Source: Microbacterium sp. SORGH_AS_0888
Lineage (GTDB): Bacteria > Actinomycetota > Actinomycetes > Actinomycetales > Microbacteriaceae
Direction: 5' to 3'
Assembly (NCBI RefSeq): GCF_030818905.1
Contig: NZ_JAUTAZ010000001.1
Span: 1,550,001-1,614,000, forward strand
Length of the DNA stretch: 64,000 bases
Shown here: piece by piece, positions 29,720 through 38,207 of the stretch
How the letters are laid out: each line of letters begins with the position of its first letter
How positions within the stretch are numbered: the first letter of the stretch is position 1
Position numbers and translations under genes: made by a program
The notes under the pieces: model-generated
The model's database searches: none
What the model was told of the DNA's origin: nothing
What the model saw: only the letters and a program-made list of their open reading frames with translations

Positions 29720-30700
29720 ATGATCGAGCGCACGATCGCGCCAGAGGTCGCCGAGGTGTTCATCGGGCTCGCCCGGGGTCGACGAGGCCTGTACCGCGAC
29801 GACGACCAGCTCGAGCAGCTGATCGCCGACGCGAAGGCGGCGCTCGAGACGGCCGATCCCGAGACGGTGGAGATCATCCGCCGGTTCGCCCGCGCCGAGG
29901 TGCCCGACGGGGGCGTGCTCTTCCACGGCCTCCTCGTCGACCAGGAGCAGATGGGCGAGAGCCCGCGCAACGCGGCCGACTTCGAGGAGAAGGACCGCGA
30001 CCCGGTCACGGAGGCGGCGCTGCTCGCCTTCGCCGCCGCGGCCGGCGAGGTCTTCGCGTTCGCGCGCCAGCACCGCGGCCAGATCGTGCAGAACGTGACC
30101 CCCGTGCCGGGCCACGAGTACGACGCGGTCGGAACCGGCAGCCGGAGCCTGCTCGACTGGCACTCCGAGGACGCGTTCGACGACGCGCACCCGCAGTTCG
30201 TCGGACTCTTCTGCGTGCGCGGCGACGAGCGCGTGCAGACCGCGCTCGCCCCGGTCGACCGCATCGCGCTGAGCGACGAGGACGAGGCCGTGCTGCGCCA
30301 GCCGCGATTCATGCACGGAATCGACAAGGCCTCCGGCGGAACCGGCCGCCCCGAGGACGGCGTCCAGGGCGCCGCCCTGTACGGCGACGACGGCAAGCGC
30401 TTCGTCCGCATCGACACGGACTGCGCCGCGGCCGTGGCGGGCGACGAGGAGGCCGCGGCCGCGCTCCAGCGCTTCCACGACGGCGCCGACGCGGAGGGCG
30501 TGTACGTCACGCTCGGAGCCGGCGACATCCTCCTGTTCGACAACCGCAGGGTGATGCACGCACGCACTCCCTTCGAGCCCCGGTACGATGGCACGGATCG
30601 GTGGCTGCAGCGCGTCATCATCACCGACGACCTCGGTCGTTCCGAGGGGCGCCGCAGCGTCCGCCCCCGCGTCGTCGAGAACGAGCTCCTGAACGCCTGA
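29720..30700 (+). CDS. Clavaminate synthase/asparagine oxygenase-like Fe(II)/2-oxoglutarate dioxygenase
   Basis: A 326-residue dioxygenase of the TauD/clavaminate-synthase branch. Iron ligands are visible as H148 and E150 (LLDWHSEDAF; the His-x-Glu form is typical of clavaminate synthase, AsnO and VioC) and H280 (RRVMHARTPF). The 2-oxoglutarate Arg is in RYDGTDRWLQR. These relatives hydroxylate the beta-carbon of free amino acids such as Asn or Arg, so a free or activated amino acid is the likely substrate. It is the first gene of a four-gene operon with an ATP-grasp enzyme (25 bases later) and two racemase homologues. In Microbacterium a glutamate hydroxylase for 3-hydroxyglutamate of the cell wall is one possible role; that is inference. 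Confidence 0.85.
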   Translation: MIERTIAPEVAEVFIGLARGRRGLYRDDDQLEQLIADAKAALETADPETVEIIRRFARAEVPDGGVLFHGLLVDQEQMGESPRNAADFEEKDRDPVTEAALLAFAAAAGEVFAFARQHRGQIVQNVTPVPGHEYDAVGTGSRSLLDWHSEDAFDDAHPQFVGLFCVRGDERVQTALAPVDRIALSDEDEAVLRQPRFMHGIDKASGGTGRPEDGVQGAALYGDDGKRFVRIDTDCAAAVAGDEEAAAALQRFHDGADAEGVYVTLGAGDILLFDNRRVMHARTPFEPRYDGTDRWLQRVIITDDLGRSEGRRSVRPRVVENELLNA

Positions 30701-30725: not shown

Positions 30726-31751
30726 ATGCATTCACGTTTCCGTGGGATCGCCCGCCAGGTCGGCTACATGAAGTGGCGGCTGCAGAACATCGACGTGCGC
30801 TCGGTCCTCGAGCGCGCCACCGAGGTGTCGGAGCACTTCGGCAGGTGGAGGCCGGCGATCGTCGCCGACATGTTCTGGCAGGCCTCGTTCCATCAGGTGG
30901 GCTTCCAGGACTACGTCGACTACGACTTCGCGATCCTGAACCGTGCGGAGCGGCGCACGATGATGACGCATCCCTACTCGAACCAGTACTCGGCGCAGCT
31001 GGACCACCCCGACTACCGCCACATCTTCCACGACAAGTGGGAGTTCGACCGCGTGTTCGCACCCCACATCCGGCGGGAGTGGATGCTGCTGGAGCCCGGC
31101 AACGCCGCAGAGCTGCGCGCATTCGCGGAACGCCACCCGGTGCTGATCACGAAGCTGCAGCTCGGGCAGTCGGGAAGCGCGATCCGCCGCTACTTCGCCG
31201 GCGACGTCGAGGACTGGGACGCCTTCCACGCCGAGCTCATGGAGCGCGGCGAGCGACTCATCGAGGAGAACATCGAACAGCACCCGGACCTCGCGGCCGT
31301 CTGCCCGGGCACCGTCAACTCGACGCGCGTGGTCGCGTACTTCGACGGCGAGAAGACGCACATCCTCGCCGTCGCGCAGAAGTTCGGACGCGGCCAGGTG
31401 GCCGACCAGATGGACTTCGGCGGCTTCTACACGATGCTCGACCCCGAGACCGGCAAGGCGCTCGGCGGCGGGTACGACTCGCACGCGCACGTGCACGAGG
31501 TGCACCCGGACAGCGGGTTCCGCATCGCCGACTTCCAGCTGCCGATGTTCGACGAGGTCGTCGCCTTCATCGACACCGTGGCCCGTCACGTGCCGCAGGT
31601 GCCCTACGTCGGGTGGGACATCGCGATGACCCCGGACGGCCCGGACCTCATCGAGGGCAACTGGGCCACCGGCGTCTACGAGAACAAGCCGAGCGTGCTC
31701 GGGATCCGCACCGGCCACCGTCCGCGGTACCAGAAGGCGATCGGCTTTTGA
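30726..31751 (+). CDS. ATP-grasp enzyme, sugar-transfer-associated type (PF14397-like)
   Basis: A 341-residue ATP-grasp protein. The best markers are VGWDIAMTPDGPDLIEGN, which carries the Mg/ATP ligands Asp, Glu and Asn near the C-terminus, and LITKLQLGQSGSAIRRYF in the middle. PF14397 was described as linked to cell-surface polysaccharide synthesis, and ATP-grasp enzymes generally join a carboxylate to an amine or thiol. Here it follows an amino-acid oxygenase and its stop overlaps the first racemase-like gene (TTG inside TTTTGA), so ligation of a D- or hydroxy-amino acid is plausible. No signal peptide or clear membrane helix is seen. No ribosome site is obvious before the ATG at 30726. Confidence 0.82.
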   Translation: MHSRFRGIARQVGYMKWRLQNIDVRSVLERATEVSEHFGRWRPAIVADMFWQASFHQVGFQDYVDYDFAILNRAERRTMMTHPYSNQYSAQLDHPDYRHIFHDKWEFDRVFAPHIRREWMLLEPGNAAELRAFAERHPVLITKLQLGQSGSAIRRYFAGDVEDWDAFHAELMERGERLIEENIEQHPDLAAVCPGTVNSTRVVAYFDGEKTHILAVAQKFGRGQVADQMDFGGFYTMLDPETGKALGGGYDSHAHVHEVHPDSGFRIADFQLPMFDEVVAFIDTVARHVPQVPYVGWDIAMTPDGPDLIEGNWATGVYENKPSVLGIRTGHRPRYQKAIGF

Positions 31752-32422
31752 CGAGCCCCACGGCCGCCCGCGTGGCGGTCTCCCGCGGGGCGCTCGCGGC
31801 CAACGCCCGACGCGTCGCGGCACACGGCGGCATCGCCGATCTGCGGCGTGACGCGTACGGGCACGGCGCCGGGGTCGTCGCGTCGGCGCTGTTCGACGCC
31901 GGGGTGCGCTCGGTCGTTGCCGACGAGCGCGACCGGGAGGCGGTGGCGCGCGCCGGACTCGCGGTGACGGATGTCTCGCCCACGATCGATCCGCGCGCGC
32001 TGTTCGGGCTGCCCGGCTCGGCGGGCGAGCCCGCGCTGCGGCTGTCGGCATCCGTGCTCTCGGTCAAGCGGCTGCGCGCCGGCGAGGGCGTCTCCTACAA
32101 CTACACGCACATCGCCCCGCGCGACACGCGCATCGCGCTGGTCTCGGGCGGCTTCGGCCAGGGCGTCGTGCGCGCGCTCGGCAACCGGGTGTCGGTCGAG
32201 ATCGGCGGCGCGGTGCATCCGATCGTGGGCCGCGTCGCGATGGACGTGTGCGTCGTCGACGTCGGCGCCGCGCCGGTGGCGCGGTTCGACGAGGTCGTGT
32301 ACTTCGGCGGCGCAGGTCCCGCGCGGCACGCCCTCGCCGAGTGGGAGCGGGCGACGGGCCTGCGCGGAACCGAGCTCGTGGGCGCGCTCGGGCTGCGTCT
32401 GGCACGCGAGGTGGTCGCGTGA
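31748..32422 (+). CDS. Short alanine-racemase homologue lacking the PLP lysine (carries the C-terminal domain)
   Basis: A 224-residue protein with two pieces of alanine racemase joined: the first strand-helix units of the barrel (1-70) and a complete C-terminal beta domain (95-224). The PLP motif VVKxDAYGHG reads DLRRDAYGHG, so the catalytic Lys is Arg33. About 130 residues of the barrel are missing. The C-terminal domain is well kept: GEGVSYNYTHIAPRD holds Tyr117, aligned with the catalytic Tyr that reaches into the partner active site, and PIVGRVAMD holds M165-D166. It cannot form an active site alone. TTG at 31748 overlaps the ATP-grasp stop and has AGAAGG upstream; GTG at 31772 is the alternative. 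Its own stop overlaps the next gene (GTGA). Pairing with the next protein is a strong inference. Confidence 0.8.
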   Translation: MTSPTAARVAVSRGALAANARRVAAHGGIADLRRDAYGHGAGVVASALFDAGVRSVVADERDREAVARAGLAVTDVSPTIDPRALFGLPGSAGEPALRLSASVLSVKRLRAGEGVSYNYTHIAPRDTRIALVSGGFGQGVVRALGNRVSVEIGGAVHPIVGRVAMDVCVVDVGAAPVARFDEVVYFGGAGPARHALAEWERATGLRGTELVGALGLRLAREVVA

Positions 32423-33465
32423 GCGGCGGGTCGGGCGCGCGGCTGCGGGTCGACCTGGGACGCATCCGCGCGAACGTCGACGCCCTCCGCGCGCGCATCG
32501 GGGACGCGGAGGTCATGCTCGTCGTGAAGAACGACGCCTACGGCCACGGCGTCGAGCGCGTCGTGGCGGATGCCGCCGCGCACGGCGTGGCCCGGTTCGG
32601 CTCGTTCGACGTGCCGACCGGCGTGCGCGCCCGCGCCGCCGCCGGCCCCGACGCCCGCGTGTTCGCCTGGGTCACGGTCGGACGAAAGGAGGTCGCGGCC
32701 GCGATCGATGCACGGCTCGAGCTCGGCGTCGGCGACCGCGACTACCTCGAGGACGTCGCGGCCGTGTCGCGCGGACGCGGCGTCCCGGTGCACCTGAAGA
32801 TCGACACGGGCCTGCACCGCAACGGCGTGCGCCCGGAGGACTGGGCGGGGTTCGTCGGCCGTGCCGCCGCGCTGGAGGCGAGCGGCGACATCCGGGTCGT
32901 GGGGCTGTGGAGCCACATCGCCGAGACGAGCGAGGCGGCCGACGATGCGGCCCGAGCCGAGTTCCTCGCCGGGGTCGACGCGGCACGCGCCGCGGGGCTC
33001 TCGCCGCGCACGCTGCATCTCGCGGCGAGCGCCGCGGGCTACGCGCGACCCGAGTTCCGCTTCGACATGGTGCGCTTCGGGGCGTTCTGCTACGGCGTGC
33101 GCTCGACCGACGGGCCGGAGCTGCCCGGCATCGCGCCGGCCGCGACCCTGCTCGCCCCGGTCGTCGCCGTCGACGCGGACACCGTCGAGATCGGCGTCGG
33201 CGCGCTCGACGGCGTGCCGTCGACGCTCGCGCAGCGCTTCGCCGTCGGCACGGTGGCCGGCGCACGCCGGGTGCGCGCCGTGGGAGACGTCTCGCTCACG
33301 GTCGAGGCCTGGCCGGGCGCGACGCCGGGGCAGGACGTCGCGGTGTTCGGCCCCGGCGCGCTCGGCGAGTCGTCGGCGACGACGCTCGCGGAGGCCATCG
33401 GCACGGTCGGCGAGGAGATCCTCGTGCGCGTCTCGCCGCTCGTCCCGCGCGATTACGTCGGCTGA
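32419..33465 (+). CDS. Alanine-racemase homologue with PLP lysine but an eroded C-terminal domain
   Basis: A 348-residue protein with a full PLP barrel. K37 in LVVKNDAYGHG is the PLP lysine, R134 is in HLKIDTGLHRNGV, and SHIAETSE, LHLAASAAGYA and FDMVRFGAFCYGV follow the family. The C-terminal domain is divergent: the SYGxTY block with the catalytic Tyr is absent (the region reads VEIGVGALDGVPSTL) and no MD motif is found where the preceding protein has one. Coupled by GTGA overlap to that protein, which has exactly those parts. Together they could make one composite site. The substrate may be Ala, Ser, Lys or Orn. This could instead be a PLP-binding protein that no longer racemises. Confidence 0.82.
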   Translation: MSGGSGARLRVDLGRIRANVDALRARIGDAEVMLVVKNDAYGHGVERVVADAAAHGVARFGSFDVPTGVRARAAAGPDARVFAWVTVGRKEVAAAIDARLELGVGDRDYLEDVAAVSRGRGVPVHLKIDTGLHRNGVRPEDWAGFVGRAAALEASGDIRVVGLWSHIAETSEAADDAARAEFLAGVDAARAAGLSPRTLHLAASAAGYARPEFRFDMVRFGAFCYGVRSTDGPELPGIAPAATLLAPVVAVDADTVEIGVGALDGVPSTLAQRFAVGTVAGARRVRAVGDVSLTVEAWPGATPGQDVAVFGPGALGESSATTLAEAIGTVGEEILVRVSPLVPRDYVG

Positions 33466-33589: not shown

Positions 33590-36500
33590 GTGGATGAGAC
33601 GTCCGGCGTGCTGAGCAGGTTCTCGCCGGCCACGCAGGACTGGTTCCGCAGCGCTTTCGCCGAGCCGACCGCGGCGCAGGCCGGCGCCTGGGAGGCCATC
33701 TCGCACGGTCGGCACGCCCTCGTCGTGGCCCCGACCGGATCGGGCAAGACCCTGTCGGCGTTCCTATGGGCGATCGACCGCGTGTTCCGCGACCGCGGCG
33801 CACGGCCCGAGACGACGACGGATGCCTCCCCCCGCCGCCGCGACAAGGCTCCCCCGCGGACCCGCATCCTCTACGTGTCGCCGCTGAAGGCGCTCGGGGT
33901 GGACGTCGAACGCAACCTCCGCTCGCCGCTCGTCGGGATCGGGCAGTCGGCACGACGCCTCGGCCTCCCGGCGCCCGACGTCACGGTCGGGGTGCGCTCG
34001 GGCGACACCCCCGCGGCCCGACCGGCGGAGGCTGCTCGCGGATCCGCCCGACATCCTCATCACGACGCCCGAGTCGCTGTACCTCATGCTCACGAGCCAG
34101 GCCGCCGAGACGCTGCGCGAGGTGCACACCGTGATCGTCGACGAGGTGCACGCGGTCGCGGCCACCAAGCGCGGTGCGCACCTGGCCGTGAGCCTCGAGC
34201 GGCTCGACGCGTTGCTCGAGACGCCGGCGCAGCGCATCGGCCTGTCGGCGACGGTGCGCCCGATCGACGAGGTGGCCCGTTTCCTCGGCGGCGCCGCACC
34301 GGTCGAGATCGTCGCCCCGCCCGCGTCGAAGACGTTCGACCTGCGCGTCGCGGTTCCGGTCGACGACATGCTGCACCCGCCGCCTCCGCCCGGTGCCGAG
34401 CAGACGGCCGAGGGCGAGTGGTTCGAGGGCGGCGAGAGCACGGTGACGGGCTCGCTGTGGCCGCACGTCGAGGAGGCGATCGTGGACCGCATCCTCGCGC
34501 ACCGCTCGACCATCGTGTTCGCGAACTCCCGCCGGCTCGCCGAACGGCTCACGGCGCGCCTCAACGAGATCTACAGCGGGCGGCTCGGGATCGACCTGCC
34601 CGAGCCGACCGTCCCGGCCTCCGTCATGGCGCAGGCCGGCGCGACCGCGGGCGCGGAGCCGGTGCTCGCGAAGGCGCACCACGGCTCGGTCTCGAAGGAG
34701 CAGCGGGCCCGGGTCGAGGAGGAGCTGAAGTCGGGGGCGCTGCGCTGCGTGGTCGCGACGAGCAGCCTCGAGCTGGGCATCGACATGGGCGCCGTCGACC
34801 TCGTCATCCAGGTGGAGGCGCCGCCCTCCGCCGCCTCCGGGCTGCAGCGCATCGGGCGCGCCGGCCACCAGGTGGGCGAGACGAGCCGCGCCGTGCTGTT
34901 CCCGAAGCACCGCGGTGACGTGCTGCACACGGCCGTGGTGACCGAGCGGATGCTGGCGGGCGCTATCGAGGCCGTCCGCATCCCCCGCAATCCCCTCGAC
35001 ATCCTCGCCCAGCAGACCGTCGCCGCCGCCGCGCTCGGCGCGATCGAGGTCGAGCAGTGGTACGAGACGGTGCGACGTTCGGCGCCGTTCCGCACGCTCC
35101 CCCGGTCGGCGTACGAGGCGACGCTCGACCTGCTCGCCGGCCGCTACCCCTCCGACGAGTTCGCCGAGCTGCGTCCGCGCGTGGTCTGGGACCGCGACCA
35201 CGGCACCCTCACCGGGCGTCCCGGTGCGCAGCGCATCGCGGTGACCAGCGGCGGCACGATCCCCGACCGCGGGCTCTTCGCGGTCTACGTGGCGGGCGAG
35301 TCGCAGAACGCCCGCGTCGGCGAGCTCGACGAGGAGATGGTCTACGAGTCGCGGGTCAACGACGTGTTCACGCTCGGCACGACGAGCTGGCGCATCGTCG
35401 AGATCACCCACGACCGCGTCAACGTGGTCCCCGCCTTCGGGCAGCCCGGCAAGGTGCCGTTCTGGCACGGCGACGGACTCGGGCGACCCGCCGAGCTCGG
35501 CGAGGCCCTCGGCCGGTTCTCGCGGGAGGTGTCGGCGGCGACGCCCGAGAAGGCGCGCGACCGCCTCACCGAGGCGGGGCTGGACCGCAATGCCCAGGAC
35601 AACCTCCTGGCGTACCTCGCCGAGCAGCGGGAGGCCACCGGACACGTGCCGACCGACCGGACGCTGGTCGTCGAGCGGTCGCGCGACGAGGTCGGCGACT
35701 GGCGGGTCATCCTCCACTCGCCCTACGGCATGCAGGTGCACGCCCCCTGGGCGCTCGCGATCAACGCGCGCATCCGCGAGCGGCTGGGCGTCGAGGGCTC
35801 CGCCGTCGCGAGCGACGACGGCATCATCGCCCGCATCCCGGATGCGGACGCCGAGCCACCGGGAGCCGAGCTCTTCGTGTTCGAGGCGGAGGAGCTCACC
35901 CAGATCGTGACCGAGGAGGTGGGGGGCTCGGCGCTGTTCGCCTCGCGCTTCCGCGAGTGCGCGGCGAGGGCGCTGCTCATGCCGCGAACGAACCCGTCGC
36001 GACGGAGCCCGCTGTGGCAGCAGCGGCAGCGGTCGGCGCAGCTGCTCGAGGTCGCTCGCCGCCATCCGACCTTCCCGGTGATCCTCGAGACGCTCCGCGA
36101 GGTGCTGCAGGACGTCTACGACCTGCCGGCGCTCGAGGACATCGCCCGCCGCATCGGGGACCGCCGCATCCGGCTGGTGGAGACGACGACCTCGCAGCCG
36201 TCGCCCTACGCCCGCGACCTGCTGTTCGGCTACGTCGGCGCGTTCATGTACGAGGGCGACTCCCCGCTGGCCGAGCGGCGCGCCGCCGCGCTCTCGGTCG
36301 ACCCGGCGCTGCTCTCGGAGCTGCTCGGCACGGTCGAGATGCGCGAGCTCCTCGACCCCGACGTGATCGCCCAGTTCGAGCGGGAGGCGCAGCGCCTCGA
36401 TCCGGGCCGACAGGTGCGGGGCGTCGAGGGGGTCGCCGACCTGTTGCGGCTCCTCGGACCGCTCGGCGTCGACGAGATCGCGGCGCGGCTGCGCGAGGGG

Positions 36501-38207
36501 GATGCGGCGGCGTGCGCGGCAGAGCTCGTCGAGGCGCGCCGGGCGATCCGGGTGCAGATCGCCCGCGAGACCCGGATCGCCGCGGTCGAGGATGCGGGAA
36601 GGCTGCGCGACGCGCTCGGCGCGGCGCTGCCGGTGGGGCTTCCGAACGCGTTCCTCGAGCCGACCCCCGACCCGCTGGGGGACCTGGTGGCGCGATTCGC
36701 CCGCACGCACGGTCCGTTCCCGACGGATGCGGTCGCCGACCGCTTCGGGGTCGGCATCGCCGTCGCCCGCCACGCCCTGCAGCGCCTGGAGGCGCAGGGC
36801 CGCGTCGCGAGCGGCTTCTTCCTGCCGGCGTCAGCCGCAGACGGCCCTGCTTCGCCGGCGGATGCGACCGAGTGGTGCGACAGCGAGGTGCTGCGGCGGC
36901 TGCGGATGCGCTCGCTCGCCGCGATCCGCGGCAGCGTCGAGCCCGTGCCGCCCGAGGCGTTCGCGCGGTTCCTGCCCGACTGGCAGCACGTGATGCGGCC
37001 GCTCGAGGGGGTCGACGGCGTGCTCGCCGTGGTCGAGCAGCTCGCCGGGGTGCCGGTGCCGGCGAGCGCCTGGGAGTCGCTCGTGCTCCCGGGGCGGGTG
37101 CGCGACTACGCCCCCGCGATGCTCGACGAGCTGACGGCGACGGGCGAGGTGCTCTGGTCCGGGCACGGCGCGCTTCCCGGCCGTGACGGCTGGATCGCGC
37201 TGCACCCGGCGGATGCCGCGAGCCTCACCCTCCTCCCGCCGTCGGACGAGGTGGCCTCCGGCTCGCTCGACGCCCAGCTGCTGGCCGCCCTCGCGCAGGG
37301 CGGGGCGTACTTCGCCGGTCAGTTGCGCGAGGCGACCGGCGCGGCGAACGAGCAGGAGGTGCTCGACGCCCTGTGGCGGCTCACGTGGACGAGCCGCGTC
37401 ACCAACGACACGTTCGCCCCGGTGCGGGGGCTGCTCTCGGGCGGGTCGCAGGCGCATCGGTCCGTGCGTCGCGCGCCCCGCGCGCGGGTGTTCCGCGGAC
37501 AGTCGCTGCCGCGTCCTGCCGCACCGCCCCGCCCGACGGGCGCCGGGGGCCGCTGGTCGCTGCTGCCGCAGGCCGAGTCCGAGCCGACCCTGCGAGCCAC
37601 CGCATCCGCGAGTCTGCTGTTGGACCGCTACGGCGTCGTGACGCGGGGCAGCGTGCAGAACGAGGGCGTGCCCGGCGGGTTCGCCCAGGCGTACCGGGTG
37701 CTCGCGGGCTTCGAGCAGGCGGGGCACTGCCGCCGGGGTTACGTGATCGAGAAGCTGGGCGCGGCACAGTTCGCGGCCTCGGCGACGGTCGATCGGCTGC
37801 GTACCTTCGCCTCCGTCGCCGATCCCCCGCCGTTGGCCGCCCTCACACTCGCCGCGACCGACCCGGCGAACCCCTACGGCGCCGCCCTGCCGTGGCCGGG
37901 CCTGGACGCCGTCTCGCACCGTCCGGGCCGGAAGGCCGGTGCGCTGGTGGTGCTCGTCGACGGCGCGCTCGCCCTCTACCTCGAGCGAGGCGGCAAGACC
38001 GCGCTGCTGTTCACCGACGATCGGGATGTCGCGACCGCCGCGGCGGCATCGCTCGCCGAGACGTCGCGGACGCGACGGCTCGAGACCCTCACGATCGAGC
38101 AGGTGAACGGCGAGCTCGTGTTCGGATCCGCGCTGGCGGGACCGCTGCGCGAGGCGGGGTTCGTCGAGTCGCCGCGGGGCCTCACGATGCGACGGGCGCG
38201 CCCGTGA
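33590..38207 (+). pseudogene. lhr: ATP-dependent helicase Lhr (long form), frameshifted
   Basis: Large superfamily 2 helicase of the Lhr/lhr-Core family, about 1,530 residues if repaired. Walker A APTGSGKTLSAFLWAIDR is in the first frame. The DEVH box (IVDEVHAVAATKRGAH), motif III (GLSATVRP) and motif VI (QRIGRAGHQVGE) are in the second. From 33590 the frame runs to SGDTPAA (about 34016) and is then lost; the correct sequence DRRRLLADPPDILITTPES continues one base later, and reads to 38207. One extra C in the CCC at 34017-34019 explains it. This is a sequencing error or a recent inactivation; the second part is intact to the end and shows no decay. In mycobacteria Lhr takes part in DNA repair and is induced by mitomycin C. 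GTG at 33590 is supported by CATGAT six bases upstream. Confidence 0.88.

Follow-up and report, generated by a model that had tools for sequence, protein, structure and literature searches.

Alanine racemases (Alr) are homodimers with two equal active sites, in which the lysine binding pyridoxal 5'-phosphate (PLP) and the catalytic tyrosine of each site are provided by different subunits. A catalytically dead paralogue serves as the partner subunit in eukaryotic serine palmitoyltransferase and in trypanosome deoxyhypusine synthase, and the D-amino acid in the peptidoglycan bridge of Enterococcus faecium is produced by an aspartate racemase, which stands beside an ATP-grasp D-aspartate ligase. 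The stretch of DNA analyzed here (referred to as the window; 64,000 nucleotides of Microbacterium sp. SORGH_AS_0888, contig NZ_JAUTAZ010000001.1, positions 1,550,001 to 1,614,000) encodes on its forward strand two unequal relatives of alanine racemase: protein A (positions 31748-32422 of the window, TTG start, 224 amino acids) and protein B (32419-33465, GTG start, 348 amino acids), the genes of which overlap by four bases (GTGA). The complementary anatomy of the two proteins, their co-occurrence and their fusion in related organisms make it likely that A and B bind each other and act as a heterodimeric racemase with one active site.

In the Pfam comparison, A matched solely the alanine-racemase C-terminal domain (PF00842, 1e-28) and B the barrel domain (PF01168, 2.9e-49), with a weak additional match to PF00842 (2.1e-06); the cut-off of the NCBIfam model alr (TIGR00492, 168 bits) was reached by neither protein (A, 93.3 bits; B, 130.2 bits), and a complete canonical Alr gene is located elsewhere in the same genome. 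When aligned with solved alanine racemases and with this Alr, A retained a stub of the barrel start, most of the barrel being gone; Arg33 took the position of the PLP lysine, and Y117 and the MD motif coincided with the catalytic Tyr/MD block. Conversely, B kept the barrel with K37, the PLP lysine, and R134, and the Tyr strand and MD motif had no counterpart in this protein. The sequence-only reading of the locus had described both proteins in these terms and had noted the four-base overlap; the alignments and the coordinates bore it out on each point.

The same distribution of residues was found in the homologous pairs from other genomes of the family. In a sample of 150 Microbacteriaceae genomes, the 30 loci with the best B matches, each from a different genome, were read first, and their residues were compared with the canonical Alr of the Microbacterium genome investigated here as reference row (residue numbers given below are taken to be those of the Geobacillus alanine racemase). 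In all 30 pairs, B contained the counterparts of Lys39, Tyr43, Arg136, His166, His200 and Arg219 without the strand of Tyr265, and A contained the counterparts of Tyr265 and Met312 without the lysine; thus, PLP lysine and catalytic tyrosine never resided on one polypeptide of the pair. Taken together, the two proteins supply the full catalytic set, i.e. Lys39, Arg136, His166 and Arg219 from B and Tyr265, Met312 and Asp/Asn313 from A. Since this pattern recurred in 30 of 30 pairs and the alignment columns of Y117 in A (24 rows) and of K37 and R134 in B (28 rows) were invariant, the complementarity is not a matter of chance. With start codons chosen by script, A varied by genus from 181 to 344 amino acids, and B started four bases within A at 22 of the 30 loci.

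In the proposed mechanism, A and B would form, as its two subunits, a single PLP-dependent amino-acid racemase with the fold of alanine racemase. B would bind PLP on K37 and carry the lysine as one acid/base catalyst, and A would dock in place of the missing partner C-terminal domain and donate Tyr117 as the second. As Lys-PLP would come from B and Tyr117 from A, each A:B dimer would contain a single composite active site, the other one having been lost on both sides.

The genomic distribution of the two genes is consistent with such a mutual dependence. In the family sample, an A-like reading frame lay directly 5' of B at all 30 of the best B loci; a B-type gene was present in 45 of the 150 genomes and was adjoined by A in 44, the last one being cut by a contig end (two of the 45 B-type genes are themselves truncated by the end of their contig, which precludes a judgement on their Tyr strand). 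In a second sample of 52 genomes of the genus (cut-offs E <= 1e-30 for A and E <= 1e-48 for B), both genes were detected in the same 42 genomes, adjacent in every case, and neither in the other ten, among them a genome with a completeness of only 81%; at the same cut-offs, neither A nor B was found in 34 genomes of other families. One source assigns two proteins related to A-B (P0134 and P0156) to Burkholderiaceae and Candidatus Saccharibacteria, and the label of another source starts with Microbacteri; they probably derive from misbinned Microbacteriaceae contigs.

Furthermore, both halves occur joined in one polypeptide. A chain of 601 residues holding an A and a B half surfaced in the profile search with A, and a search with this chain yielded 19 single-chain A-B proteins of 485-807 residues (17 complete, two shorter) among the best 120 of 1452 matches, so that more may exist. 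One of them is encoded on a 2.1 Mb isolate contig of Parafrigoribacterium mesophilum; others are metagenomic. In all 19, the A half had the tyrosine and no lysine, and the B half had the lysine and had lost the tyrosine (in the two short fusions, the lysine region of the A half itself is missing). The A halves of the complete fusions span 237 to 436 amino acids, and the fusions fall into at least three size classes, which suggests separate fusion events. The predicted model of the fused chain, calculated from an alignment of 17 fusions only, had overall scores of 88.4 for the predicted local distance difference test and 0.88 for the predicted template modelling (TM) score; the B half alone covered about 0.56 of the fused chain by TM-score, and its barrel belongs to the alanine-racemase fold. 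The best solved relatives were likewise alanine racemases (for the structure, by Foldseek and VIA-align, the latter covering residues 250-601 of the model in the main). The obligate heterodimer put forward as a possibility by the sequence-only reading is well supported by the genomic data, in particular by the strict co-occurrence without any lone homologue (42 of 42 genomes in the genus and 44 of 45 in the family, apart from the contig end) and by the fusions, which that reading did not include; the high score of the fused chain bears on the geometry of the complex only indirectly. The full-length relatives and the cell-wall context described below likewise go beyond that reading.

Full-length relatives bear on the origin of the split. 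Two full-length, catalytically complete racemases were encoded in tandem at 15 loci, and a sixteenth tandem (L251) was also seen; the barrel tree placed the first copy with the canonical Alr and the second (T2), a full-length and catalytically complete relative of B at the 15 loci checked, among the B proteins. At another locus (L210), a short A accompanied a B in which the Tyr block is degenerate. Because some A proteins and A halves of fusions retained a long barrel and nevertheless had lost the lysine, the loss of the lysine in A probably preceded the deletion of the barrel, as judged from the sequences. A single origin of the Tyr-less B proteins was rejected by the approximately unbiased test (p 9e-5; barrel tree with 35 B among 78 rows, the B group being chosen after the first tree and not fixed beforehand), and the C-terminal domains of A were all situated on one side of one branch (119 columns, long branches). 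With B not forming one clade and A lying on one side of a branch, the split may have occurred repeatedly, or T2 may have reacquired its C-terminal domain. The family, thus, holds a series leading from the full-length racemase via a long A without the catalytic lysine to the truncated A, in addition to the fusions: a natural and directly testable case of an enzyme dimer that would have lost one of its two sites by complementary decay.

The neighborhood of the pair, read at 48 loci, points to the cell wall. Both sigA and parE were present in the stretch, with the pair between them or in that region, at 41 of the 48 loci; the locus of the window is among the other seven. Homologues of MurT and/or GatD were encoded at 27 loci and an ATP-grasp protein (PF14397) at 14, both never together; neither was seen at seven loci, two of which lie on short contigs or at contig ends. 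In the window, the ATP-grasp gene (30726-31751, forward strand) overlaps A by four bases and encodes the proposed ligase partner, and 31 of the 42 pair-bearing genomes of the genus sample have an ATP-grasp homologue at most 4 kb away from B. The MurT and GatD relatives were named as such by Pfam and NCBIfam, with scores far below the NCBI equivalog cut-offs. MurT beside the pair retained the ATP motif and an SW.YD.D region, which we take to be the site of the triad residue Asp349 (the number itself being assumed). The accompanying GatD was devoid of the nucleophile C94 in 23 of 23 cases; among sequences drawn from 110 genomes of the family with a match and from 41 genomes of other families, the cysteine was absent in 49 of 53 from Microbacteriaceae, whereas all 26 from other families within the order retained it. 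A loss of this cysteine throughout Microbacteriaceae, as suggested by the initial 33 of 33 sequences, was discarded when four of 20 further sequences proved to contain it; the assessment of the wall role stayed as it was, given the 23 of 23 beside the pair. According to the published work, MurT-GatD amidates the alpha-carboxyl group of D-Glu in lipid II, and C94 is the nucleophile of GatD, the variants C94S and C94G being inactive in amidation (PMC6113224). The complex is of relevance here because its target, the alpha-carboxyl group of D-Glu, carries the bridge in type-B peptidoglycan.

Since the pair adjoins genes of cell-wall ligases, it may produce a D-amino acid for cross-linking of the wall; a GatD unable to supply ammonia and a MurT encoded beside a racemase would then suggest the D-amino acid itself as the amine used by MurT. 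In detail, the racemase would make a D-diamino acid (D-ornithine, D-lysine or D-2,4-diaminobutyrate, depending on the species) that connects the alpha-carboxyl group of D-Glu with D-Ala in type-B peptidoglycan, and the neighboring ligase would attach it, i.e. the ATP-grasp protein in the investigated strain and MurT with Cys-less GatD in many relatives. On the basis of gene context and published wall chemistry, this role of the pair in the cell wall appears fairly likely, and the reading as a whole, a heterodimeric racemase that supplies the D-diamino acid of the type-B bridge, is regarded as rather probable. If the cell-wall role is correct, candidate genes for the type-B (group B) peptidoglycan bridge, for which no gene is named among the matches listed in the open-licence literature, would be at hand together with a reason for the nucleophile-less GatD.

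The published wall data fit this role in a number of taxa. In Clavibacter, D-2,4-diaminobutyrate (DAB) forms the bridge from D-Glu to D-Ala (PMC9603630), and D-ornithine is given for M. testaceum and M. oxydans (both by clade or as reference strain) and for M. sufflavum (PMC10757982); the strains of these three species that were searched encode A, B and the ATP-grasp protein side by side. Further genera were matched to A, B or the fusion by the name given in the source, with the residues of examples being checked: their descriptions report L-DAB and D-ornithine for Agreia, D-ornithine for Homoserinimonas, lysine (type B2beta) for Parafrigoribacterium, DAB for Glaciihabitans, lysine and ornithine for Salinibacterium and DAB (type B1alpha) for Lacisediminihabitans. 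Full-length T2 was found in Herbiconiux, described with D- and L-DAB, and in Subtercola vilae, described as type B2gamma. This comparison of the pair with the wall diamino acid covers a handful of named genomes, its L-lysine side consisting of Yaish 1 (which groups with M. arborescens) and G059. The members of Rathayibacter probably possess mostly L-DAB.

Several observations weigh against the wall role or restrict its reach. GatD proteins with the cysteine were second copies in three pair-bearing genomes (G201, G213, G270), the pair-side GatD of which is Cys-less, and the sole copy in the pair-less G161; Cys-less GatD also occurred in genomes without the pair (e.g. G226 and G288). An ATP-grasp gene was present in all ten genus genomes without the pair, and of the 42 with it nine had no match at 1e-10, and G026 had a weak one only; a strict tie between ATP-grasp gene and pair is therefore ruled out. 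M. gubbeenense (L225) has A, B and the ATP-grasp protein, and its wall was reported to contain L-lysine (PMC10757982). For Rhodoluna lacicola, the description gives D-DAB, and the Rhodoluna metagenome-assembled genome searched, of unknown completeness, yielded one racemase match only. Neither B nor T2 was evident in about 89 of the 150 genomes sampled from the family, which were not inspected singly, and D-diamino acids occur in many Microbacteriaceae. In consequence, a role of the pair in every member of the family with a D-diamino acid is unsupported. The wall chemistry of M. gubbeenense merits a recheck, as the three genes are present despite the reported L-lysine.

Two further features of the neighborhood concern the ligase genes. 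At the nine pair-less genus loci read, the sigA-parE slot was occupied by one ATP-grasp gene in five cases and by two in tandem in three, and in one genome the ATP-grasp genes lay elsewhere; such tandems were present in four pair-less genomes (L267-L270), that of L270 being located outside the slot and accompanied by an extra fragment. The tandem genes perhaps serve a bridge of two residues. Where ATP-grasp replaces MurT-GatD, a gene similar to F420 gamma-glutamyl ligase (PF01996) often follows sigA (L178, L181, L182, L184, L186, L196, L213, L258, L261 and L274; checked against Pfam in L274 only).

A more comprehensive scenario for Microbacteriaceae can be put forward tentatively, and is somewhat doubtful in its entirety: the lipid II amidation complex would have been converted into a ligase of the bridge amino acid (MurT with Cys-less GatD, elsewhere an ATP-grasp protein), which would be fed by a racemase duplicated and reduced by complementary losses to one composite site; the split would have taken place more than once, or have been undone once by a new C-terminal domain, and have been resealed by fusion in several lineages.

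Among the alternative explanations, a true heterodimer acting on another substrate (alanine, serine or other) without any role in type-B walls, i.e. a second source of D-Ala or D-Ser beside Alr, is unlikely and yet the most serious: fold and best solved relatives point to alanine racemases and much of the family lacks the pair, but the genome already encodes a complete canonical Alr, MurT/GatD or ATP-grasp homologues accompany the pair at 41 of the 48 loci, and several pair-bearing genera are described with D-ornithine, DAB or lysine type-B walls. It is improbable that B functions independently of A as a non-racemase PLP enzyme or PLP carrier, A being a regulator or relic. Proteins of the racemase fold without racemase activity do exist, and all PLP-side residues checked were kept in B; however, precisely the Tyr and Met lost by B were preserved in A in each pair and fusion examined (30 and 19, respectively), and in the genus sample no A was found without B.

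That A, B or both would associate with the canonical Alr subunit as modulators instead of with each other might be conceived from the homology of all three proteins, the dimer interface of which may be shared. The gene overlap, the 42 of 42 co-occurrence and the repeated A-B fusions favor A with B as partners, and this arrangement is considered very improbable. Finally, the view that both genes are functionless, decaying remains of a racemase duplication is hardly credible: degenerate as A and B are compared with Alr, and notwithstanding the tandem full-length pairs in relatives, their frames are open, their catalytic columns are invariant across genera, and the sigA-parE placement at 41 of 48 loci as well as the fusions speak against decay. 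The heterodimeric racemase feeding a type-B bridge is the reading we prefer.

Upstream of the ATP-grasp gene, a protein similar to 2-oxoglutarate dioxygenases (29720-30700, forward strand; PF02668) is encoded, the gene of which ends 25 bases 5' of the former. Its top NCBIfam match was GntD, followed by VioC, both below cut-off, and no homologue was present at the 47 other pair loci read; whether it is a member of the A/B gene unit is uncertain. The protein is nearest to arginine/enduracididine hydroxylases. 3-Hydroxyglutamate is found in some Microbacteriaceae walls, and a connection with this dioxygenase is only a guess. On the 3' side of B, an Lhr-like helicase gene (33590-38207) has its N-terminal part in one frame to about position 34,050 and the remainder (34086-38207) in another; it looks frameshifted, or the sequence contains an error.

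The enzyme family to which A and B belong is known; the proposed one-site heterodimer with complementary losses would be new as far as searched. Neither a heterodimeric racemase nor MurT/GatD in Microbacteriaceae nor a racemase of type-B walls is described among the matches listed in the open-licence literature, in agreement with the statement of the sequence-only reading that no split racemase of this kind was known. With Alr (TIGR00492; PDB 1xfc, 1vfh) the pair shares the fold, the PLP lysine and barrel residues being found in B and the catalytic Tyr and MD motif in A; unlike in Alr, these parts are distributed over two unequal proteins, and one site would be left. The broad-specificity and lysine racemases (PDB 4dyj, 4dza, 7agz) have the same fold and probably resemble the pair in acting on larger or diamino acids, but are encoded by single genes and matched A and B more weakly in sequence than actinobacterial Alr. 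Homologues of the lipid II amidotransferase MurT/GatD (PDB 6gs2, 6fqb) adjoin A/B at 27 of the 48 loci, and differ from it in the missing C94 of all 23 pair-side GatD proteins. The E. faecium system shows the same juxtaposition of an ATP-grasp ligase and a racemase for the bridge amino acid; its aspartate racemase, unlike A/B, belongs to another family and is the product of a single gene. Serine palmitoyltransferase and the trypanosome deoxyhypusine synthase are different from A/B in fold and reaction, and are similar in that unequal paralogues share one active site at their interface.

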